From: Micromonospora rhizosphaerae
GTDB lineage: Bacteria; Actinomycetota; Actinomycetes; Mycobacteriales; Micromonosporaceae
NCBI RefSeq assembly: GCF_900091465.1
Contig: NZ_FMHV01000002.1
Location: forward strand, 1,116,001-1,180,000
Direction: 5' to 3'
Length of the DNA: 64,000 bases
Shown: positions 48,231 through 54,347 of the stretch, piece by piece
Layout of the letters: every line of letters starts with the position of its first letter
How positions within the stretch are numbered: position 1 is the stretch's first letter
The notes under the pieces: model-generated
What the model was told of the DNA's origin: nothing
What the model saw: only the letters and a program-made list of their open reading frames with translations
Database searches by the model: none
Made by a program: the position numbers and the translations under genes

Positions 48231-48587
48231 TCAGGAGGAGGCCGGGGTCGGGTCGCCCGCGACGGCCTGCTCGACCGTCGGGTAGGTGTGCAGCACCTCG
48301 ACCAGGCCGCTGACCTCCAGGATGCGCAGCACGCCGCGCTGCGGGGCGGCCAGCCGGACGACGCCGCCGGCCTCGTCGCAGCTGTTCTTGGCCCGTACGA
48401 ACACGGACAGCCCGGTGGAGTCGCAGAACGACACGTCCGCCAGGTCGAAGACGAGGCGGTTGCGCCCCTTGTCCAGCAGATCAGTGATCTGGTCCTGCAA
48501 CTGCGGTGCGGTCGCCATGTCCAACTCGCCCGCGACCGACACGACGACCACGTCGCCGCGCTGTTCCGTCTGCACCGTCAGGGACAT
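48231..48587 (-). CDS. STAS-domain anti-sigma factor antagonist
   Basis: 118 residues from the ATG at 48587 with AGGAGG upstream. It shows 'VSVAGELDMATAPQLQDQI', 'LVFDLADVSFCDSTGLSVFV' (phosphorylatable Ser57) and 'GVLRILEVSGLVEVLHTYPT', the SpoIIAA/RsbV-like pattern. It would bind an anti-sigma kinase when dephosphorylated. It lies divergent from the stressosome-like operon, 161 bases away. Confidence 0.92.
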   Translation of the reverse strand: MSLTVQTEQRGDVVVVSVAGELDMATAPQLQDQITDLLDKGRNRLVFDLADVSFCDSTGLSVFVRAKNSCDEAGGVVRLAAPQRGVLRILEVSGLVEVLHTYPTVEQAVAGDPTPASS

Positions 48588-48748
48588 TCGCCGACCTCCT
48601 GTGTTCGGTGGAACGGTATCCCACGAAGTGGGGGACACGCAGAACGGGAGCCGGTGCGGGTTCCGACGATCATTCTTGCCTCGCGGCAATAGTTGCAGGG
48701 CTGCGGTGATAGAGTCCGGCACCGGTCCAGGTCAAGGGAGGTCTCACC

Positions 48749-49609
48749 GTGGCGTTGCACCCGGAGGAGAGTCGCCGGCTCGCCGGCCTGCTGAGCCAGC
48801 ATGCCGAGCAGCTGACCCGGCGGTGGACGGAGGTCGTCGGCGCGTCGCTGCGCGGACGGCTCAGCCAGGCGGAGCTCGCCCGCCAGGTGCAGGAGCTGCG
48901 CCGTAGCATGATCGACGCCGGCGAGAACGGCATCACCGACCTGGATTCCGAGCAGGGCGGTGAGCTGCGCGCGGTGCTCGCCGAGCTCTCCCGAAGCCGC
49001 GCCCGGCAGGGCTTCACCGCGACCGAGACCGCGATCAGCGTCTTCGCGCTGAAGGATGCCCTGCTCGAGCTGATGGAGGAGGGCCAGGACGCGGCTACCC
49101 TCCGCGACTACGTCGCCTTCTCCGGGCTGATCGACCAGATGGGGCTCTTCACCTTCGAGAGCTACGTCCGCACCCGGGAGAGCCTGATCGCCGACCAGGC
49201 CGAGCAGCTGCTCGAACTCTCCACCCCGGTGGTCAAGCTCTGGGAGGGCGTGGTCGCCGTCCCGCTGGTCGGCACGCTCGACTCGGCCCGCGCCCAGGTG
49301 GTGATGGAGCGGCTGCTGCAGACCCTGGTCGACACCGGATCGCCGTACGCGATCATCGACATCACCGGCGTCCCGGCGGTGGACACCCAGGTCGCCCAGC
49401 ACATCCTCAAGACCGTGGTGGCCGCCCGGCTGATGGGCGCCGACTGCATCATCTCCGGCATCCGGCCGCAGATCGCGCAGACCATCGTCGCCCTCGGCAT
49501 CGAGTTCGGCGACATCGCCACCAAGGCGAGCCTCGCCGACGCCCTGCGCCACGTGCTGCGGCTGACCGGCGTCGAGACCACCCGCCGGCAGCCGCGTCGG
49601 GAGTCCTGA
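48749..49609 (+). CDS. rsbR: RsbR-like STAS protein
   Basis: 286 residues from a GTG at 48749 with GGGAGG upstream. The N-terminal half (to about 160) is the RsbRD_N-type helical sensor ('LLSQHAEQLTRRWTEVVGAS', 'FTATETAISVFALKDALLEL'), and the C-terminal half is a STAS domain with 'IIDITGVPAVDTQVAQHILK' (phosphorylatable Thr213). RsbR proteins form the stressosome shell with RsbS. The stop and the next ATG overlap by one base. Confidence 0.9.
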   Translation: MALHPEESRRLAGLLSQHAEQLTRRWTEVVGASLRGRLSQAELARQVQELRRSMIDAGENGITDLDSEQGGELRAVLAELSRSRARQGFTATETAISVFALKDALLELMEEGQDAATLRDYVAFSGLIDQMGLFTFESYVRTRESLIADQAEQLLELSTPVVKLWEGVVAVPLVGTLDSARAQVVMERLLQTLVDTGSPYAIIDITGVPAVDTQVAQHILKTVVAARLMGADCIISGIRPQIAQTIVALGIEFGDIATKASLADALRHVLRLTGVETTRRQPRRES

Positions 49610-50019
49610 TGGAGCGGGTGCCGATCCTGAAGATCGGCGACATCCTGCTGGTCTCCATCCAGGTCGACATGTCCGACCAGACGGCGGTCCAGCTCCAGGA
49701 GGACCTGGCCGAACGAATCGTCGCAACCGGCAGCCACGGTGTGATCATCGACATCACCGCGCTGGACATCGTCGACTCGTTCGTCGGCCGGATGCTCTCC
49801 ACCATCGCGTCCATCTCCAAGGTGCTGGACGCCGAGATCGTGGTGGTCGGGATGCGTCCCGCCGTCGCCATCACCCTGGTCGAACTGGGCCTGTCGCTCA
49901 ACGGCATCCGGACCGCGCTGAACGTCGAGCGGGGCATGGAGCTGATCGCGGCGGCGCGGGTCTACGAGTGGGACGAGGTCGACGCCGACGAGGATGCCGA
50001 GACGACGGCCACCACATGA
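49609..50019 (+). CDS. rsbS: RsbS-like STAS protein
   Basis: 136 residues, a STAS domain alone with an acidic tail. 'VPILKIGDILLVSIQVDMSD' at the start and 'IIDITALDIVDSFVGRMLST' in the centre, with the phosphorylatable Ser57 at the position of B. subtilis Ser59. It overlaps both neighbours (TGATG before, ATGA after). Partner of the RsbR-like product in the stressosome core and antagonist of the RsbT-like kinase. Confidence 0.92.
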   Translation: MERVPILKIGDILLVSIQVDMSDQTAVQLQEDLAERIVATGSHGVIIDITALDIVDSFVGRMLSTIASISKVLDAEIVVVGMRPAVAITLVELGLSLNGIRTALNVERGMELIAAARVYEWDEVDADEDAETTATT

Positions 50020-50435
50020 CCGCCGGTGTCGATCTGGGCGTGCCGCAGATCCAGGCGATCCAGAGCGACGAGGACGTGGTCCGGGTCCGCCAGCTGGTGC
50101 GTACGGTCGCGGTCGCGGTAAAGCTCTCGCTGGTCGACCAGACCAAGCTCGTCACCGCCGCGAGCGAGCTGGCCCGCAACACCCTGGTCTACGGCGGCGG
50201 CGGCACGGCCGAGGTGGTCACCGTCGAGGACGACCGCCGGCGCGGGGTGCGGATCCTCTTCGCCGACTCCGGGCCCGGCATCGCCGACATCGAGCTGGCC
50301 CTGACCGACGGCTACACCACCGGCAACGGGCTCGGCCTGGGGCTGAGCGGGGCCCGCCGGCTGGTCGACGAATTCGATGTCTGGACCGCCGTCGGCGAGG
50401 GGACCCGGATCACCATCACCAAGTGGTCCCGATGA
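50016..50435 (+). CDS. rsbT: RsbT-like serine/threonine kinase
   Basis: 139 residues of the GHKL ATPase fold. N-box 'VTAASELARNTLVYGGGG' (intact Asn), G1 'ILFADSGPGIADIELAL' and the ATP lid 'GNGLGLGLSGARRLVDEF'. In B. subtilis RsbT phosphorylates RsbS/RsbR and then activates a PP2C phosphatase. It overlaps rsbS and the next gene by four bases on each side. Confidence 0.92.
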   Translation: MTAGVDLGVPQIQAIQSDEDVVRVRQLVRTVAVAVKLSLVDQTKLVTAASELARNTLVYGGGGTAEVVTVEDDRRRGVRILFADSGPGIADIELALTDGYTTGNGLGLGLSGARRLVDEFDVWTAVGEGTRITITKWSR

Positions 50436-51445
50436 GCGGGGACCTGCTCTCCGACCACGGCATCTGGTTCCGGGTGGAGAGCAGCAGCGCGGCCAGCGCG
50501 GTACGCCGGGCGGCCGAGCGCCTCGGCACCCAGTTGGAGCTGGGCGCGTCCCGGACCGCCGACCTGGCGATCGTCGCCGCCGAGCTGACCAGCAACCTGG
50601 TCAAGCACGCCGAGGAGGGGAGCCTGCTGCTCCGGCCGGTGCGCCGGAGTGGACGGGCCGGCGTGGAGCTCATCGCCATCGACTCCGGGCCCGGCATGGC
50701 CGACCTGACCGTGTCGTCGCGGGACGGGCATTCCACCACCGGGACGCTCGGCATCGGTCTCGGCGCGATCGCCCGGCAGGCGAGCTGGTTCGACGGGTAC
50801 TCGCTGCCGGGGCGGGGCACCGTGCTGGCCGTACAGGTCTGGTCGGGGCCGGCGCCGGAGCCGTCCTGGGCCGGTGGGCTGACCCGGCCGATCACCGGCG
50901 AGCAGGTCAGCGGCGACGGGTACGCCGTCCGGGTCGCCGAGGGCCGGCACCAGGTGCTGGTCTGCGACGGTCTGGGGCACGGGCCGCTGGCCGCCGCCGC
51001 CACCGATGCCGCGTTCGCCGCGTTCCGGGCCGCGCCGGCCGGGCCGCCGGGCGCCGTGGTGCTGCATCTGCACCGCGCGATGTCGCACACCCGGGGCGCC
51101 GCGCTCGCCGTGGCCGAGCTGGATCCGGCCGCGGGCTTGCTCCGGTACGCCGGGCTGGGCAACATCGCAGCCATGATCGTGGTCGGGGGCGAGCGGCGCC
51201 GGAGCCTGGTCTCGTTGCCCGGCATCGCCGGCCACCGGCGTCCGGCCGTGCGGGAGTACGACTACCCGTGGCAGGCCGGCGCGACGCTGGTCATGCACAG
51301 CGACGGGGTGGTCGACCGCTGGGACCTCGCCGACTACCCGGGTCTGGACGGGCGGGCGCCCCTGGTGACGGCGGCGACCCTGCTCCGCGACGCCGGGATC
51401 CGCCGCGACGACGCCTGCGTCCTGGTCGCCCGGGCGGAGTCATGA
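50432..51445 (+). CDS. ATP-binding SpoIIE-type phosphatase
   Basis: 337 residues. The first 135 residues are a GHKL ATPase of the RsbW/RsbT kind: N-box 'IVAAELTSNLVKHAEEG', G1 'IAIDSGPGMADL' and 'TLGIGLGAIARQA'. The rest is a PP2C_SpoIIE domain with 'QVLVCDGLGHGPLAAAATDA' and 'VMHSDGVVDRWDL'. Such fusions resemble RsbX-like feedback phosphatases with a kinase half. It overlaps the kinase gene and the histidine kinase gene by ATGA junctions. Confidence 0.88.
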   Translation: MSGDLLSDHGIWFRVESSSAASAVRRAAERLGTQLELGASRTADLAIVAAELTSNLVKHAEEGSLLLRPVRRSGRAGVELIAIDSGPGMADLTVSSRDGHSTTGTLGIGLGAIARQASWFDGYSLPGRGTVLAVQVWSGPAPEPSWAGGLTRPITGEQVSGDGYAVRVAEGRHQVLVCDGLGHGPLAAAATDAAFAAFRAAPAGPPGAVVLHLHRAMSHTRGAALAVAELDPAAGLLRYAGLGNIAAMIVVGGERRRSLVSLPGIAGHRRPAVREYDYPWQAGATLVMHSDGVVDRWDLADYPGLDGRAPLVTAATLLRDAGIRRDDACVLVARAES

Positions 51446-52806
51446 CCGATCCCGCAGACACTCTGCCGCTGCTCCAGATGGCGCTCCGGATCGAACAGGA
51501 CATCTTCCTCGTCCGGCAGCGCGGCCGGGAGGCGGCCGCCGCGGTCGGCCTGGAGCACCAGGACCAGGTACGCATCGCCACCGCGCTGAGCGAGGTGGCC
51601 CGAGACCTGCTGCACTCGGTCGGCGGCGCGGACGTCACCTTCTCGGTCGTCTTCGATCTCGCCGCCGGCCGCTCCGTGCTGCGGGTGGACCTCGCGCCGG
51701 TGGGTCCGCTGCCCGACGGCCGGTACGAGCCGCAGTCCGGCGCGGTGGCGCGGCTGGTCGACATGCTGGCCGTAGTCCCCGCCGATGGGGATACGGTCGT
51801 GAGGATGTCCCGACGTGTCCCGGCCAACGCGCAGGCGCTGACCCCGGTGCGACTCGCCGAACTCCGCGCGGAGCTGAGCCAGAGCGCACCGGGCAGCGCC
51901 CTGGACGAGCTCGCCGCCCAGAACGAGCAGCTCATCGCCGCGCTCGACGAGGTGCGCAGCCAGCGCGACGAGCTGGAGGTGCTCAACGAGGAGCTCCAGG
52001 AGACCAATCGGGGCGTGATGGCTCTCTACAACCAGCTGACCGAGGAGCTGGAGGAGACCAATCGCGGCGTGGTGGCCCTCTACGCCGAACTGGACGAGAA
52101 GTCGGCCCAGCTGCGGACGGCGAGCGAGTCGAAGAGCCGCTTCCTGGCCAATGTCAGCCACGAGCTGCGTGCCCCGGTCGCCGCGATCATCGGGCTGGCC
52201 CGGCTGCTGGCCGACTCCGCGTCCGATCCGCTCACCGTCGAGCAGGCCCGGCAGGTCGGGTTGATCCGTTCGTCGGCGTCCGACCTGCTCACGCTGGTCA
52301 ACGAGCTGCTCGACCTGGCGAAGGCGGAGTCGGGCCGGATCGAGCCGAACTGGGCCGACGTGGACCTGCGGGCGCTCTTCGGGCAGCTCCGGGGCACCGT
52401 CCGGGCGCTGGCCACGAGGCCGGGCGTCAACCTGGTGGTGGAGGAGCTTCCACGGCCGGCGACCATCCGCTCCGACGAGGTGCTGCTCGCCCAGGTGCTG
52501 CGCAACCTGCTGCACAACGGTCTCAAGTTCACCGAGCGGGGCGAGGTCCGGCTGCGCGCGGACCGGCACGAGGACCGCTGGTCGCTGTCGGTCTCCGACA
52601 CCGGCGTCGGCATCCCGCCCGAGCTGCACGAGCGGATCTTCGAGGAGTTCTACCAGGTGCCCGGGGCGACCCGGGTCGGTGGCACGGGCCTCGGCCTGCC
52701 GTACGCGCGCCGGCTGGTGAAGCTGCTCGGCGGGACGTTGGAGCTGTCCAGCGAGCCCGGCCGGGGCAGCACCTTCAAGGTCAGCCTTCCGGTGGGCGGA
52801 GCGTGA
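51442..52806 (+). CDS. Soluble histidine kinase with a degenerate RsbT-like N-domain
   Basis: 454 residues, no membrane helix. The first 130 residues resemble RsbT: 'FLVRQRGREAAAAVGLEHQ', 'QVRIATALSEVARDLLHSVG' matches the N-box, but the Mg-ligand Asn is Asp and no ATP-lid or 'DSGPG' box follows, so it is a pseudo-ATPase. A coiled coil (about 155-235) contains two copies of 'LEETNRGVVALYAEL'-like repeats. HisKA has His240 in 'NVSHELRAPVAAIIGL', and the HATPase domain shows 'LRNLLHNGLKFTERG', 'DTGVGIPPE' and 'GTGLGLPYARRLV'. Partner of the next gene. Confidence 0.87.
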   Translation: MTDPADTLPLLQMALRIEQDIFLVRQRGREAAAAVGLEHQDQVRIATALSEVARDLLHSVGGADVTFSVVFDLAAGRSVLRVDLAPVGPLPDGRYEPQSGAVARLVDMLAVVPADGDTVVRMSRRVPANAQALTPVRLAELRAELSQSAPGSALDELAAQNEQLIAALDEVRSQRDELEVLNEELQETNRGVMALYNQLTEELEETNRGVVALYAELDEKSAQLRTASESKSRFLANVSHELRAPVAAIIGLARLLADSASDPLTVEQARQVGLIRSSASDLLTLVNELLDLAKAESGRIEPNWADVDLRALFGQLRGTVRALATRPGVNLVVEELPRPATIRSDEVLLAQVLRNLLHNGLKFTERGEVRLRADRHEDRWSLSVSDTGVGIPPELHERIFEEFYQVPGATRVGGTGLGLPYARRLVKLLGGTLELSSEPGRGSTFKVSLPVGGA

Positions 52807-54347
52807 CGGTGGAGGGCAGCGCGGCGACCGTGCTGGTGGTCGACGACAGTCGTACCAAGCGCTACCTGCTGGTCAGCTGGCTGACCCGGGCCGGCTTCAA
52901 GACCATCGAGGCGGAGAACGGCGCCGAGGCGCTGGCCCGGGTGGAGATCGATCCGGTCGACCTGGTGGTGCTCGACGTACGGCTGCCGGACCTCAGCGGC
53001 TTCGAGGTCTGCGAACGGATCAAGGCGGCCCTTCCGGCGATGCCGGTCATCCACGTCTCCGCGCACGCGGTGGATGTGGTGGATCGAACGCAGGGGCTGA
53101 CCCGGGGCGCGGACGCCTACCTGGCCGAGCCGATCGAGCCGGAGGAACTGGTCGCCACCGCGCACGCGGTGCTCCGCTACTACCAGGCGCGGCAACGAGC
53201 CGAGCTCCTCGCCGATCGCCTTTCCGCGCTGGCCGACGCGACGGTGTCGATGCACGCCGCGCCGAACTTCGTGCGGCTGCTCGAGGCGGCGGCGGCCGGC
53301 GCGGCGCAGATCTTCAAGTCGCCCGCAGCGGTGATCGCCGAGACCTTCGAGGGCGACTGCCTGGCCGGTGTGGCGCCGGCGCCGGGGGCGAAGTCGTCCG
53401 TCGTCCCGTGGGGGGTCGAGGACACCGGGGTGCCCATCGGCGCCACGGTCCGGATCGACGACCCGGGCGTCTGGGACCTGGTCGACTGGCCGGCCGGCGA
53501 CACGGTGACCGTGGCCGCGGCCCGGCTGCGCGAGGACCGGCCACCGCTCTACGTGGTGGTGCCGACGCACACCCAGACCGTACGGACGCCGGTGCTGGTG
53601 CAGCTCGCGCAGGCGGTCGCGTCGGCTGTGGAGGCGCAGCGCTCCTTCGACGAGGAGCACCGGATCGCGGTGACCCTCCAACGCAGCCTGCTGCCACGCC
53701 GGCTCCCCGAGATCGGCGGTCTCGACCTGGCCGTCCGGTACGAGCCGGCGAGCGCGCGGACCGAGGTGGGCGGCGACTTCTACGAGCTGGTGATGCTCGA
53801 CGGGCACCTGCTGATGGCGATCGGCGACGTCGCCGGGCACTCGCTGCACGCCGCGACCGTGATGGCCGAGCTGCGGCACGCGGTGCGGGCGTACGCGGTC
53901 GAGGGGCACCAGCCGGGGGTGATCCTGGACCGGGTCAACGAGCTGATGCGGACCCTGCTGCCGAACGAACTGGCCACCATCTGCGTGCTGCTGGTGCACC
54001 CGAGCAGCGGTCTGGTCCGGCTGGCCAGCGCGGGGCACCTGCCGGCGCTGGTCAGCGTGGAGGGCCGGGCCGAGTTCGTCCAGCAGCCCGCGCCGCCGCT
54101 CGGCGTCCGCGCGCCCCGCCCACCGGACCTGGAGTTCGTGCTCCCGGCCGGCGCGACGCTGGTCCTCTACACCGACGGGCTCATCGAACGGCGGGACGCC
54201 ACCATCGACGAGGGGATGGCGGCGCTGGGCGCGGTCGCGTCCCGAGTGGACGACGACCTGGACCGGTTCTGCCAGCGGCTGCTGGTCGAGCTGGCGCCGC
54301 CGGAGGTTCAGGACGACGTCGCCGTGGTCGCCGTCCGTCGCCGCTGA
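52803..54347 (+). CDS. Response regulator with GAF and SpoIIE phosphatase domains (RsbU-like)
   Basis: 514 residues from a GTG overlapping the kinase stop. The receiver has 'VLVVDDSRTKR' and phospho-acceptor Asp58 in 'LVVLDVRLPDLSG'; the conserved Lys of 'YLxKP' reads Glu ('YLAEPIEPEEL'), an atypical feature. A GAF-like domain covers about 140-270. The PP2C_SpoIIE domain has 'VGGDFYELVML', 'AIGDVAGHSLHAATVMAEL' and 'VLYTDGLIERRD'. It probably dephosphorylates STAS antagonists under kinase control. Last gene of the operon; the AraC gene is convergent. Confidence 0.88.
   Translation: MTVEGSAATVLVVDDSRTKRYLLVSWLTRAGFKTIEAENGAEALARVEIDPVDLVVLDVRLPDLSGFEVCERIKAALPAMPVIHVSAHAVDVVDRTQGLTRGADAYLAEPIEPEELVATAHAVLRYYQARQRAELLADRLSALADATVSMHAAPNFVRLLEAAAAGAAQIFKSPAAVIAETFEGDCLAGVAPAPGAKSSVVPWGVEDTGVPIGATVRIDDPGVWDLVDWPAGDTVTVAAARLREDRPPLYVVVPTHTQTVRTPVLVQLAQAVASAVEAQRSFDEEHRIAVTLQRSLLPRRLPEIGGLDLAVRYEPASARTEVGGDFYELVMLDGHLLMAIGDVAGHSLHAATVMAELRHAVRAYAVEGHQPGVILDRVNELMRTLLPNELATICVLLVHPSSGLVRLASAGHLPALVSVEGRAEFVQQPAPPLGVRAPRPPDLEFVLPAGATLVLYTDGLIERRDATIDEGMAALGAVASRVDDDLDRFCQRLLVELAPPEVQDDVAVVAVRRR

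Follow-up and report, generated by a model that had tools for sequence, protein, structure and literature searches.

We analyzed a 64,000-nucleotide window of the 7.18 Mb Micromonospora rhizosphaerae genome (assembly GCF_900091465.1, contig NZ_FMHV01000002.1, positions 1,116,001-1,180,000), and the coordinates of the operon and its neighbors below are those of this window. We focused on an operon of six open reading frames (ORFs) in which a stressosome module is followed by a histidine kinase (HK) and a phosphatase with a receiver (REC) domain. The six ORFs lie at 48749-54347 on the plus strand and each overlaps its neighbor by 1 or 4 bases, as a preliminary description made from the DNA alone had reported. 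The junction sequences agree with that report: rsbR and rsbS share one base within TGATG at 49607-49611, and the other junctions are 4-base overlaps, ATGA at 50016, 50432, and 51442 and GTGA at 52803. Domains were called with Pfam, and NCBIfam searches back these calls. The first gene, rsbR (48749-49609), codes for an RsbRD_N sensor domain and a STAS domain, has both phospho-acceptor threonine positions, and matches the RsbR chains of solved stressosome structures. The second, rsbS (49609-50019), codes for a single STAS domain with its phospho-acceptor serine and matches RsbS of entry 6jhk (E 5.6e-33 over 111 residues). The third, rsbT (50016-50435), codes for the switch kinase (HATPase_c and HATPase_c_2), in which the N, G1, and G2 ATP motifs are complete.

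The fourth gene (50432-51445; HATPase_c_2 and SpoIIE) codes for a PP2C feedback phosphatase of the RsbX type that begins with an RsbT-like ATPase domain. The SpoIIE portion is similar to 3zt9 (E 5.5e-14), a Moorella protein, and to RsbX 3w40 (E 6.8e-5), and we therefore read genes 1-4 as an RsbR-RsbS-RsbT-RsbX (RSTX) module. When the N-terminal domain was compared with RsbT using hhalign, the probability was 99.9. The label given to this gene before, an ATPase-SpoIIE phosphatase, had the domains right; the protein is more than that, namely the RsbX of the module with an extra RsbT-like domain.

The fifth gene (51442-52806; HisKA and HATPase_c) had been described as a soluble kinase. It does code for a HK, and the label is incomplete because the N-terminal domain (residues 10-125, 51469-51816) is derived from RsbT. 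A profile of the HK N-terminus (55 sequences) matched a profile of RsbT (85 sequences) with an hhalign probability of 98.6 (E 1e-15), and the RsbX-fused domain with a probability of 65.1. Controls were low: RsbU_N gave 2.1, GAF 2.0, REC 0.5, STAS 0.3, and a reversed alignment against RsbT 1.1. Comparison of the HK N-terminus with the HK's own catalytic region gave 0.4, which is informative because RsbT matches that same catalytic region at 98.9, as expected within one superfamily. A duplicate of the kinase's own ATPase and an RsbU_N domain were thereby ruled out as identities for the N-terminus, and Pfam found no other sensor domain on the HK. Downstream of the RsbT-derived domain is a predicted coiled-coil linker (approximately residues 150-228, 51889-52125) with two copies of an ETNRGV-type motif, the coil being judged by eye.

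The fold of the domain is consistent with the profile comparisons. An AlphaFold2 model of HK residues 1-133, made with 21 sequences, had a predicted local distance difference test score (pLDDT) of 89.1 and the secondary structure order E-H-H-E-E-(H)-E-E. The best 16 Foldseek matches among solved structures were entries of RsbV/RsbW, UsfX-RsfB, SigF-anti-sigma, and SpoIIAB-SpoIIAA, among them 1tid_A, which is SpoIIAB. In entries 6m36 and 8ih8 the antagonist is chain 6m36_B and chain 8ih8_A, neither of which is among the matches, and we therefore take the matched chains of these entries to be the kinase partners. No RsbT structure was among the listed matches, and the fold match is of the RsbW/SpoIIAB kind. 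Among 20 relatives, identity to the window's copy of the domain ranged from 29 to 80%. A protein search with the HK N-terminus gave 291 homologues out of 7998 candidates that were scored. Those listed, 120 in number, are kinases of 420-457 residues, two of which (P0100 and P0112) are also annotated PF13581, and those named by source are from Micromonospora and so add no breadth. We conclude that HK residues 10-125 are a homologue of RsbT by sequence and by fold relationship.

We then compared residues of the ATP motifs with conserved residues outside them. All 123 RsbT rows have the N-box Glu and Asn and the checked G1 residues, and the RsbX-fused domains keep the N-box pair in 91 of 93 rows (the other two are gaps). 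Among 56 actinobacterial HK rows, the N-box Glu is present in 54 and the N-box Asn in none, and G1 and G2 are eroded. HK rows of other phyla (n = 10) have an intact N-box in every case and the G1 Asp in nine. Accordingly, the mean over 19 ATP-box positions was 0.25 in actinobacterial HKs, 0.66 in RsbX fusions, and 0.71 in the HKs of other phyla. Outside the ATP boxes, 13 of 36 conserved RsbT positions are kept at ≥0.80 in actinobacterial HKs, including R12 (1.00), R16 (0.95), D28 (0.98), T34 (0.96), and S37 (1.00), where position p is residue p+13 of the window's RsbT. Q13 (0.80), Q29 (0.91), and R41 (0.98, inside the N-box stretch) are also frequent in these HKs, and together with R16 and T34 they show the reverse in RsbX fusions (Q13 0.01, R16 0.05, Q29 0.00, T34 0.00, R41 0.02). 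K31, A36, F107, and W124, present at only 0.00-0.02 in actinobacterial HKs, count against retention of RsbT residues. R12 also falls at the place of SpoIIAB R20 if the alignment offset is extended upstream of the aligned part. We take R12 and R16 to be R19 and R23 of Bacillus subtilis RsbT. Those two arginines are implicated in RsbU binding and are buried in the predicted interface, according to a 2025 report in eLife (PMC12143880).

Among 296 genomes from the class, 55 have RsbS; the loci of this 55-genome sample are independent. The other locus sets overlap (L039 and L188, for example), so that the counts of 56, 57, 59, 66, and 118 in this work are not all independent. In the class sample, 24 loci have an RsbT-domain HK and a REC-phosphatase in the order R-S-T-X-HK-REC-PP (PP, phosphatase), one has a HK without the RsbT domain followed by a REC-phosphatase, and one (L127) has a REC-phosphatase with HK fragments only. 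Twenty-five have a phosphatase without receiver or HK, three have neither effector, and one is broken or cut. The phosphatase carries a receiver in 25 of 25 loci with a recognized HK and in one of 26 with a phosphatase but no recognized HK, the exception being the locus with HK fragments. Thus, HK and receiver come and go together, and 24 of the 25 recognized HKs keep the RsbT domain. Conservation of the six-gene order had been set beforehand as a check on the proposal of a hybrid pathway. The proposal withstands this check, and the recurrence of the order in many genera indicates that the arrangement is more than chance.

Searches with the kinase gave a similar picture. Of 121 genomes of the order, 48 had a match at E ≤ 1e-40, and in only 16 did the match start at residue ≤10 of the HK (that of M. 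rhizosphaerae, 10 from its genus, one more from the family, and four further genomes). The HK follows RsbT and RsbX genes in 15 of these 16 loci, the window included; gene 4 of the remaining locus is cut off by the end of the contig. A set of 21 named loci (L039-L059) covers Micromonospora, Actinoplanes and its kin, Asanoa, Dactylosporangium, Rugosimonospora, Herbidospora, Planotetraspora, and one Streptomyces; 19 have the RsbT-domain HK and REC-phosphatase, one has a HK without that domain, and one is cut.

Wider searches detected RsbS in 5 of 79 genomes from Cyanobacteria and 22 of 246 from Actinomycetota (E ≤ 1e-12). The numbers were 3 of 99 for planctomycetes and 13 of 249 for Pseudomonadota (E ≤ 1e-15), and 7 of 38 for genomes to which other loci had led (E ≤ 1e-10). 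An RsbT-domain HK directly follows RSTX in four cyanobacterial loci (L220, L221, L236, L237), one planctomycete locus (L219), and five loci of Pseudomonadota (L227, L228, L229, L230, L232). Pfam detects HATPase_c_2 at the N-terminus of all five RsbT-domain HKs scanned outside Actinobacteria. In 7 of these 10 loci, the next gene codes for a receiver-led kinase instead of a phosphatase. A second kind of fusion was found at L234, where an RsbT-like domain precedes a HisKA_2 kinase.

Other RSTX loci have other effectors. An RsbU_N-like domain was detected in 21 ORFs (E ≤ 0.1), including phosphatases from family f8 and from other classes of actinobacteria as well as kinases (L223, L235, L238, L239, L240, L247, L250); PF08673 itself was found in two of seven phosphatases scanned (L169, L243). 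The next effector at 118 RsbX-bearing loci has an RsbT domain in 66, RsbU_N in 14, and a match to a pseudo-RsbT/coil profile in 19; of the remainder, one has a receiver (L127), eight have nothing recognized, and in 10 no effector was found. None of the RsbT-domain effectors also matched RsbU_N. The 19 profile matches are 16 phosphatases, for which the profile is group-level evidence only, and three kinases (L226, L231, L233). The profile, made from phosphatase-only (PP-only) loci, includes the coil, and we rejected the three kinase matches as coil only. The PP-only phosphatases have a HK-like linker preceded by a fainter RsbT-like N-terminus, with hhalign probabilities of 90.1 against RsbT, 90.3 against the HK domain, 5.4 against the RsbX fusion, 0.1 against RsbU_N, and 0.1 for a reversed alignment. 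That set kept 15 of 21 candidates, six without the coil motif being dropped (two of them upstream phosphatases); among the 15, the frame of L152 seems wrong and the starts of L161, L164, and L165 are late. We could not assign L158-L160 to an effector type. L235, L239, and L247 have a second stand-alone RsbT-like gene, which separates rsbT from rsbX and looks like one half of a split RsbT-RsbX fusion. In an archaeal genome (Methanosarcina, the genome of L117), a kinase with an RsbU_N-like domain is encoded after an RSTX-like row (L223:7001-10971, minus strand).

Trees were built on RsbR-STAS, RsbS, and RsbT. The RsbT-domain HK loci of four phyla fall in one clade (FastTree 0.997; Shimodaira-Hasegawa-like approximate likelihood ratio test (SH-aLRT) 95), which also holds the broken L127, the contig-end locus L222, and five loci whose HK lacks the domain, considered below. 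Support for its actinobacterial part was 0.959 (FastTree) and 99 (SH-aLRT), and for its union with the PP-only type 0.978 and 91. We also mapped effector states on a tree of 102 of 119 rows, from which 17 near copies had been dropped. Between the rows with an RsbT domain (65, PP-only type included) and those with RsbU_N (12) there was one change, and the result was the same without the PP-only type.

The sixth gene (52803-54347) codes for the output phosphatase, REC-GAF-PP2C. Pfam finds the receiver (residues 10-119, 52830-53159) and the SpoIIE/PP2C domain (residues 333-514, 53799-54344), the presumed metal-binding Asp residues of which are invariant in 22 aligned sequences. The GAF domain of the preliminary description was not found by Pfam and is backed by the AlphaFold model and by Foldseek, which aligned about 300 columns with 6oaq/6ob8, a dual-sensor kinase of the REC-GAF kind. 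The model of the whole protein had a pLDDT of 87.7 and a predicted template modeling score of 0.62, and its best match was RssB, followed by the RsbU/RsbW part of Rv1364c. Both the acidic pair and the phospho-Asp of the receiver are present in 59 of 59 aligned homologues. With an N-terminal receiver bearing a phospho-Asp on a PP2C, and a kinase gene adjacent, the gene has the makeup of the RsbKY/RsfSR type. RsbU_N was not found (no PF08673 up to E 0.1, and no match with RsbU_N profiles from L169 and L243), so that the description of this protein as an RsbU-type phosphatase does not hold in the classical sense.

None of the six operon genes codes for a sigma factor, RsbW, or RsbV, and a lone STAS gene is divergent at 48231-48587 on the minus strand; on both points the preliminary description was correct. 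The STAS gene codes for an anti-sigma factor antagonist (TIGR00377, 101 bits against a cut-off of 53) that is RsbV/SpoIIAA-like with a DSTGL motif, and it is a possible substrate of the output phosphatase. The 161 bases between it and the operon (48588-48748) are, from the sequence, the presumed promoter site. The gene is in place in 29 of 57 actinobacterial REC-phosphatase loci, including all 10 uncut loci of the genus. The M. rhizosphaerae genome also has two SigB/F/G-type sigma factors above cut-off, 18 STAS matches, and an adjacent STAS and HATPase_c_2 pair at 1303314-1304071. Thus, candidate downstream partners exist in the genome, with no particular one assigned. In the same genome, a SigB/F/G-type sigma factor and a STAS domain share one 392-residue frame (C2:3849969-3851144; L207:970-2145), an apparent fusion to an antagonist-like domain. 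Near it, STAS and HATPase_c_2 share a 255-residue frame (C2:3853301-3854065; L207:4302-5066, minus strand), an apparent RsbV-RsbW fusion.

A merger of stressosome and two-component signaling, which the preliminary description suggested, is by itself not new. Stressosome modules followed by two-component proteins are described in PMC10014275 and PMC9237108, RsbU_N-bearing kinases at stressosome loci in PMC12143880, PMC9237108, and PMC10014275, and mycobacterial RsbRST in PMC8115616. In Vibrio vulnificus and its relatives, a sensor kinase and then another two-component protein come after RSTX (RSTX-D1-D2), as here. Some of those downstream proteins have RsbU_N and for most, including those of Vibrio, none was detected; the text available reports no positive interaction of RsbT with D1 for Vibrio (PMC9237108, PMC10014275). 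The operon differs from that description, on which our comparison with Vibrio D1 rests, in that its HK bears a domain derived from RsbT and its receiver is on a PP2C phosphatase. In RsbK/RsbY of Bacillus cereus and RsfS/RsfR of Mycobacterium smegmatis, a HK likewise controls a receiver-PP2C that acts on an anti-sigma antagonist. RsbK and RsfS, however, have CHASE3 sensor domains (RsbK also GAF), and the text available describes no RsbRST module with them (PMC10950880), whereas the HK here is encoded with RSTX and carries an RsbT-like domain. RsbU_N effectors resemble the HK in that a dedicated N-terminal domain couples the effector to the RST core (PMC12143880). They differ in that RsbU_N is a receptor for free RsbT, whereas the effector here carries an RsbT homologue instead. 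The PP-only RSTX loci, which we take to be largely from Streptomyces, are the nearest lineage in the RST trees and have the same RsbT-RsbX fusion and a similar coil; unlike the operon, they have no HK and no receiver, and the RsbT-like stretch is on the phosphatase itself. In searches of an open-access library, no title, abstract opening, or passage was found to describe the fusion of a histidine kinase to an RsbT domain, and a prior mention is possible. This suggests that the new element is the RsbT-homologous domain on the HK rather than the coupling of a stressosome to two-component proteins.

We think it probable, by a little more than an even chance, that the operon is one serial module running from the stressosome to the RsbT-domain HK, to the REC-phosphatase, and to a STAS antagonist. 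Our computations cover the order of the genes, the homology of the domains, the residues that are retained or lost, and the evolutionary switch; complex formation, release, phosphotransfer, and the substrate are inferred. RsbR and RsbS would form the sensory core, and RsbT, the RsbT-RsbX phosphatase, and the RsbT-domain HK would all contact it via RsbT-fold domains. Upon stress, RsbT would phosphorylate RsbS and RsbR, which would alter the state of the HK pseudo-RsbT domain, most likely releasing it. The HK would then autophosphorylate and act on the receiver of the neighboring phosphatase, which would determine how far a STAS antagonist, perhaps the one encoded divergently, is phosphorylated. 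Via an anti-sigma factor encoded elsewhere in the genome, a SigB-type sigma factor would be freed, and RsbX would reset the core. The RsbT domain of the HK may dock on RsbS/RsbR, clamp the HK's own coil, or both. Phosphorylation activates the phosphatase in RsbKY and inhibits it in RsfSR (PMC10950880), and because these are opposite in sign, the sign of phospho-control here is not predictable.

Several observations weigh against the serial module. The conserved Lys of the receiver is absent from 59 of 59 homologues (Glu in 47, Asp in 10, Gln in 2), a departure from a canonical receiver, and the first receivers of the kinases that follow RsbT-domain HKs also lack it (10 of 10). The mean over the 36 non-ATP RsbT positions is 0.42 in actinobacterial HKs, compared with 0.32 in RsbX fusions and 0.56 in the HKs of other phyla, and the kept arginines map to the face of RsbT that binds RsbU rather than to one demonstrated to bind RsbS. 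In 28 of the 57 loci, the divergent STAS gene was not detected at its position. Five HKs have no recognizable RsbT domain (L226, L231, and L233 from Pseudomonadota, L057, and L131), and since they lie inside the same clade, the domain is not indispensable. Finally, when the 25 other rows of the effector-state tree are treated as a third state, the number of changes rises to 13, with several rows on long branches.

The preliminary description had proposed a hybrid pathway on which two inputs may converge; freed RsbT would then activate the phosphatase directly, with the HK adding an independent signal via the receiver. The gene order and the co-occurrence of HK and receiver support a single pathway. 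Convergent inputs we consider improbable: all components are co-encoded and B. subtilis RsbT does activate its phosphatase directly, but RsbU_N, the known RsbT binding site (PMC12143880 for both), was not found on the phosphatase here, and the HK has an RsbT-homologous domain in place of any other sensor detected by Pfam. The serial module is the simpler reading on these same two grounds. An alternative that deserves more weight, unlikely though we hold it to be, is that RsbT moved from trans to cis, such that the fused domain grips the HK's own coil and RsbS pulls it away. RsbT gripping the linker of RsbU provides the analogy; the matching arginines are kept in the HK (1.00 and 0.95), and the domain precedes a coil resembling that of PP-only phosphatases, which start with the fainter RsbT-like domain. 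The kinases of L226, L231, and L233, however, retain the coil without the domain.

Two further alternatives concern the pseudo-RsbT domain itself. It could heterodimerize with RsbT and tune it, in which case the HK would regulate the core instead of serving as its output. The domain has the fold of SpoIIAB/RsbW-type kinases, which dimerize, but pairing of the HK with the REC-phosphatase at all 25 loci with a recognized HK points to output, and we regard heterodimerization as quite improbable. We give less credence still to a functionless vestige. Loss of the N-box Asn from 56 of 56 actinobacterial rows and the five HKs without the domain would fit a vestige, but despite divergence to 29-80% identity the 13 non-ATP positions are kept, and so is the domain itself in nearly every recognized HK of the class sample.

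If the serial module is correct, the RsbT-derived domain is a concrete, testable link from the stressosome to two-component proteins, gives a reason why the kinase, feedback phosphatase, and switch kinase share one fold, and offers those who study actinomycete genetics a defined candidate route to a SigB-type sigma factor. It would also exemplify the transfer of a switch protein from trans to cis. More broadly, and at slightly less than an even chance, RsbU_N, which receives free RsbT, and an RsbT copy fused to the effector may be alternative routes. The fusion would have arisen once, spread over at least four phyla, and coupled the core to exchangeable effectors (HisKA, HisKA_2 in L234, and, more faintly, the PP2C of PP-only loci), with the actinobacterial copy becoming a binding-only pseudokinase. 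If true, this would fill a published gap, namely how stressosomes reach two-component proteins without RsbU_N, for which PMC9237108 offers RsbT-dependent phosphorylation of the kinase as a guess.

A second signaling group lies past the end of the window, about 10 kb downstream of the operon (L205:143-7527). Its members are a GAF/PP2C protein of 953 residues encoded on the minus strand, a kinase of 1481 residues that has a receiver, and a further receiver gene. In eight other genomes, a large kinase lies 10-19 kb from the operon HK on the same contig.

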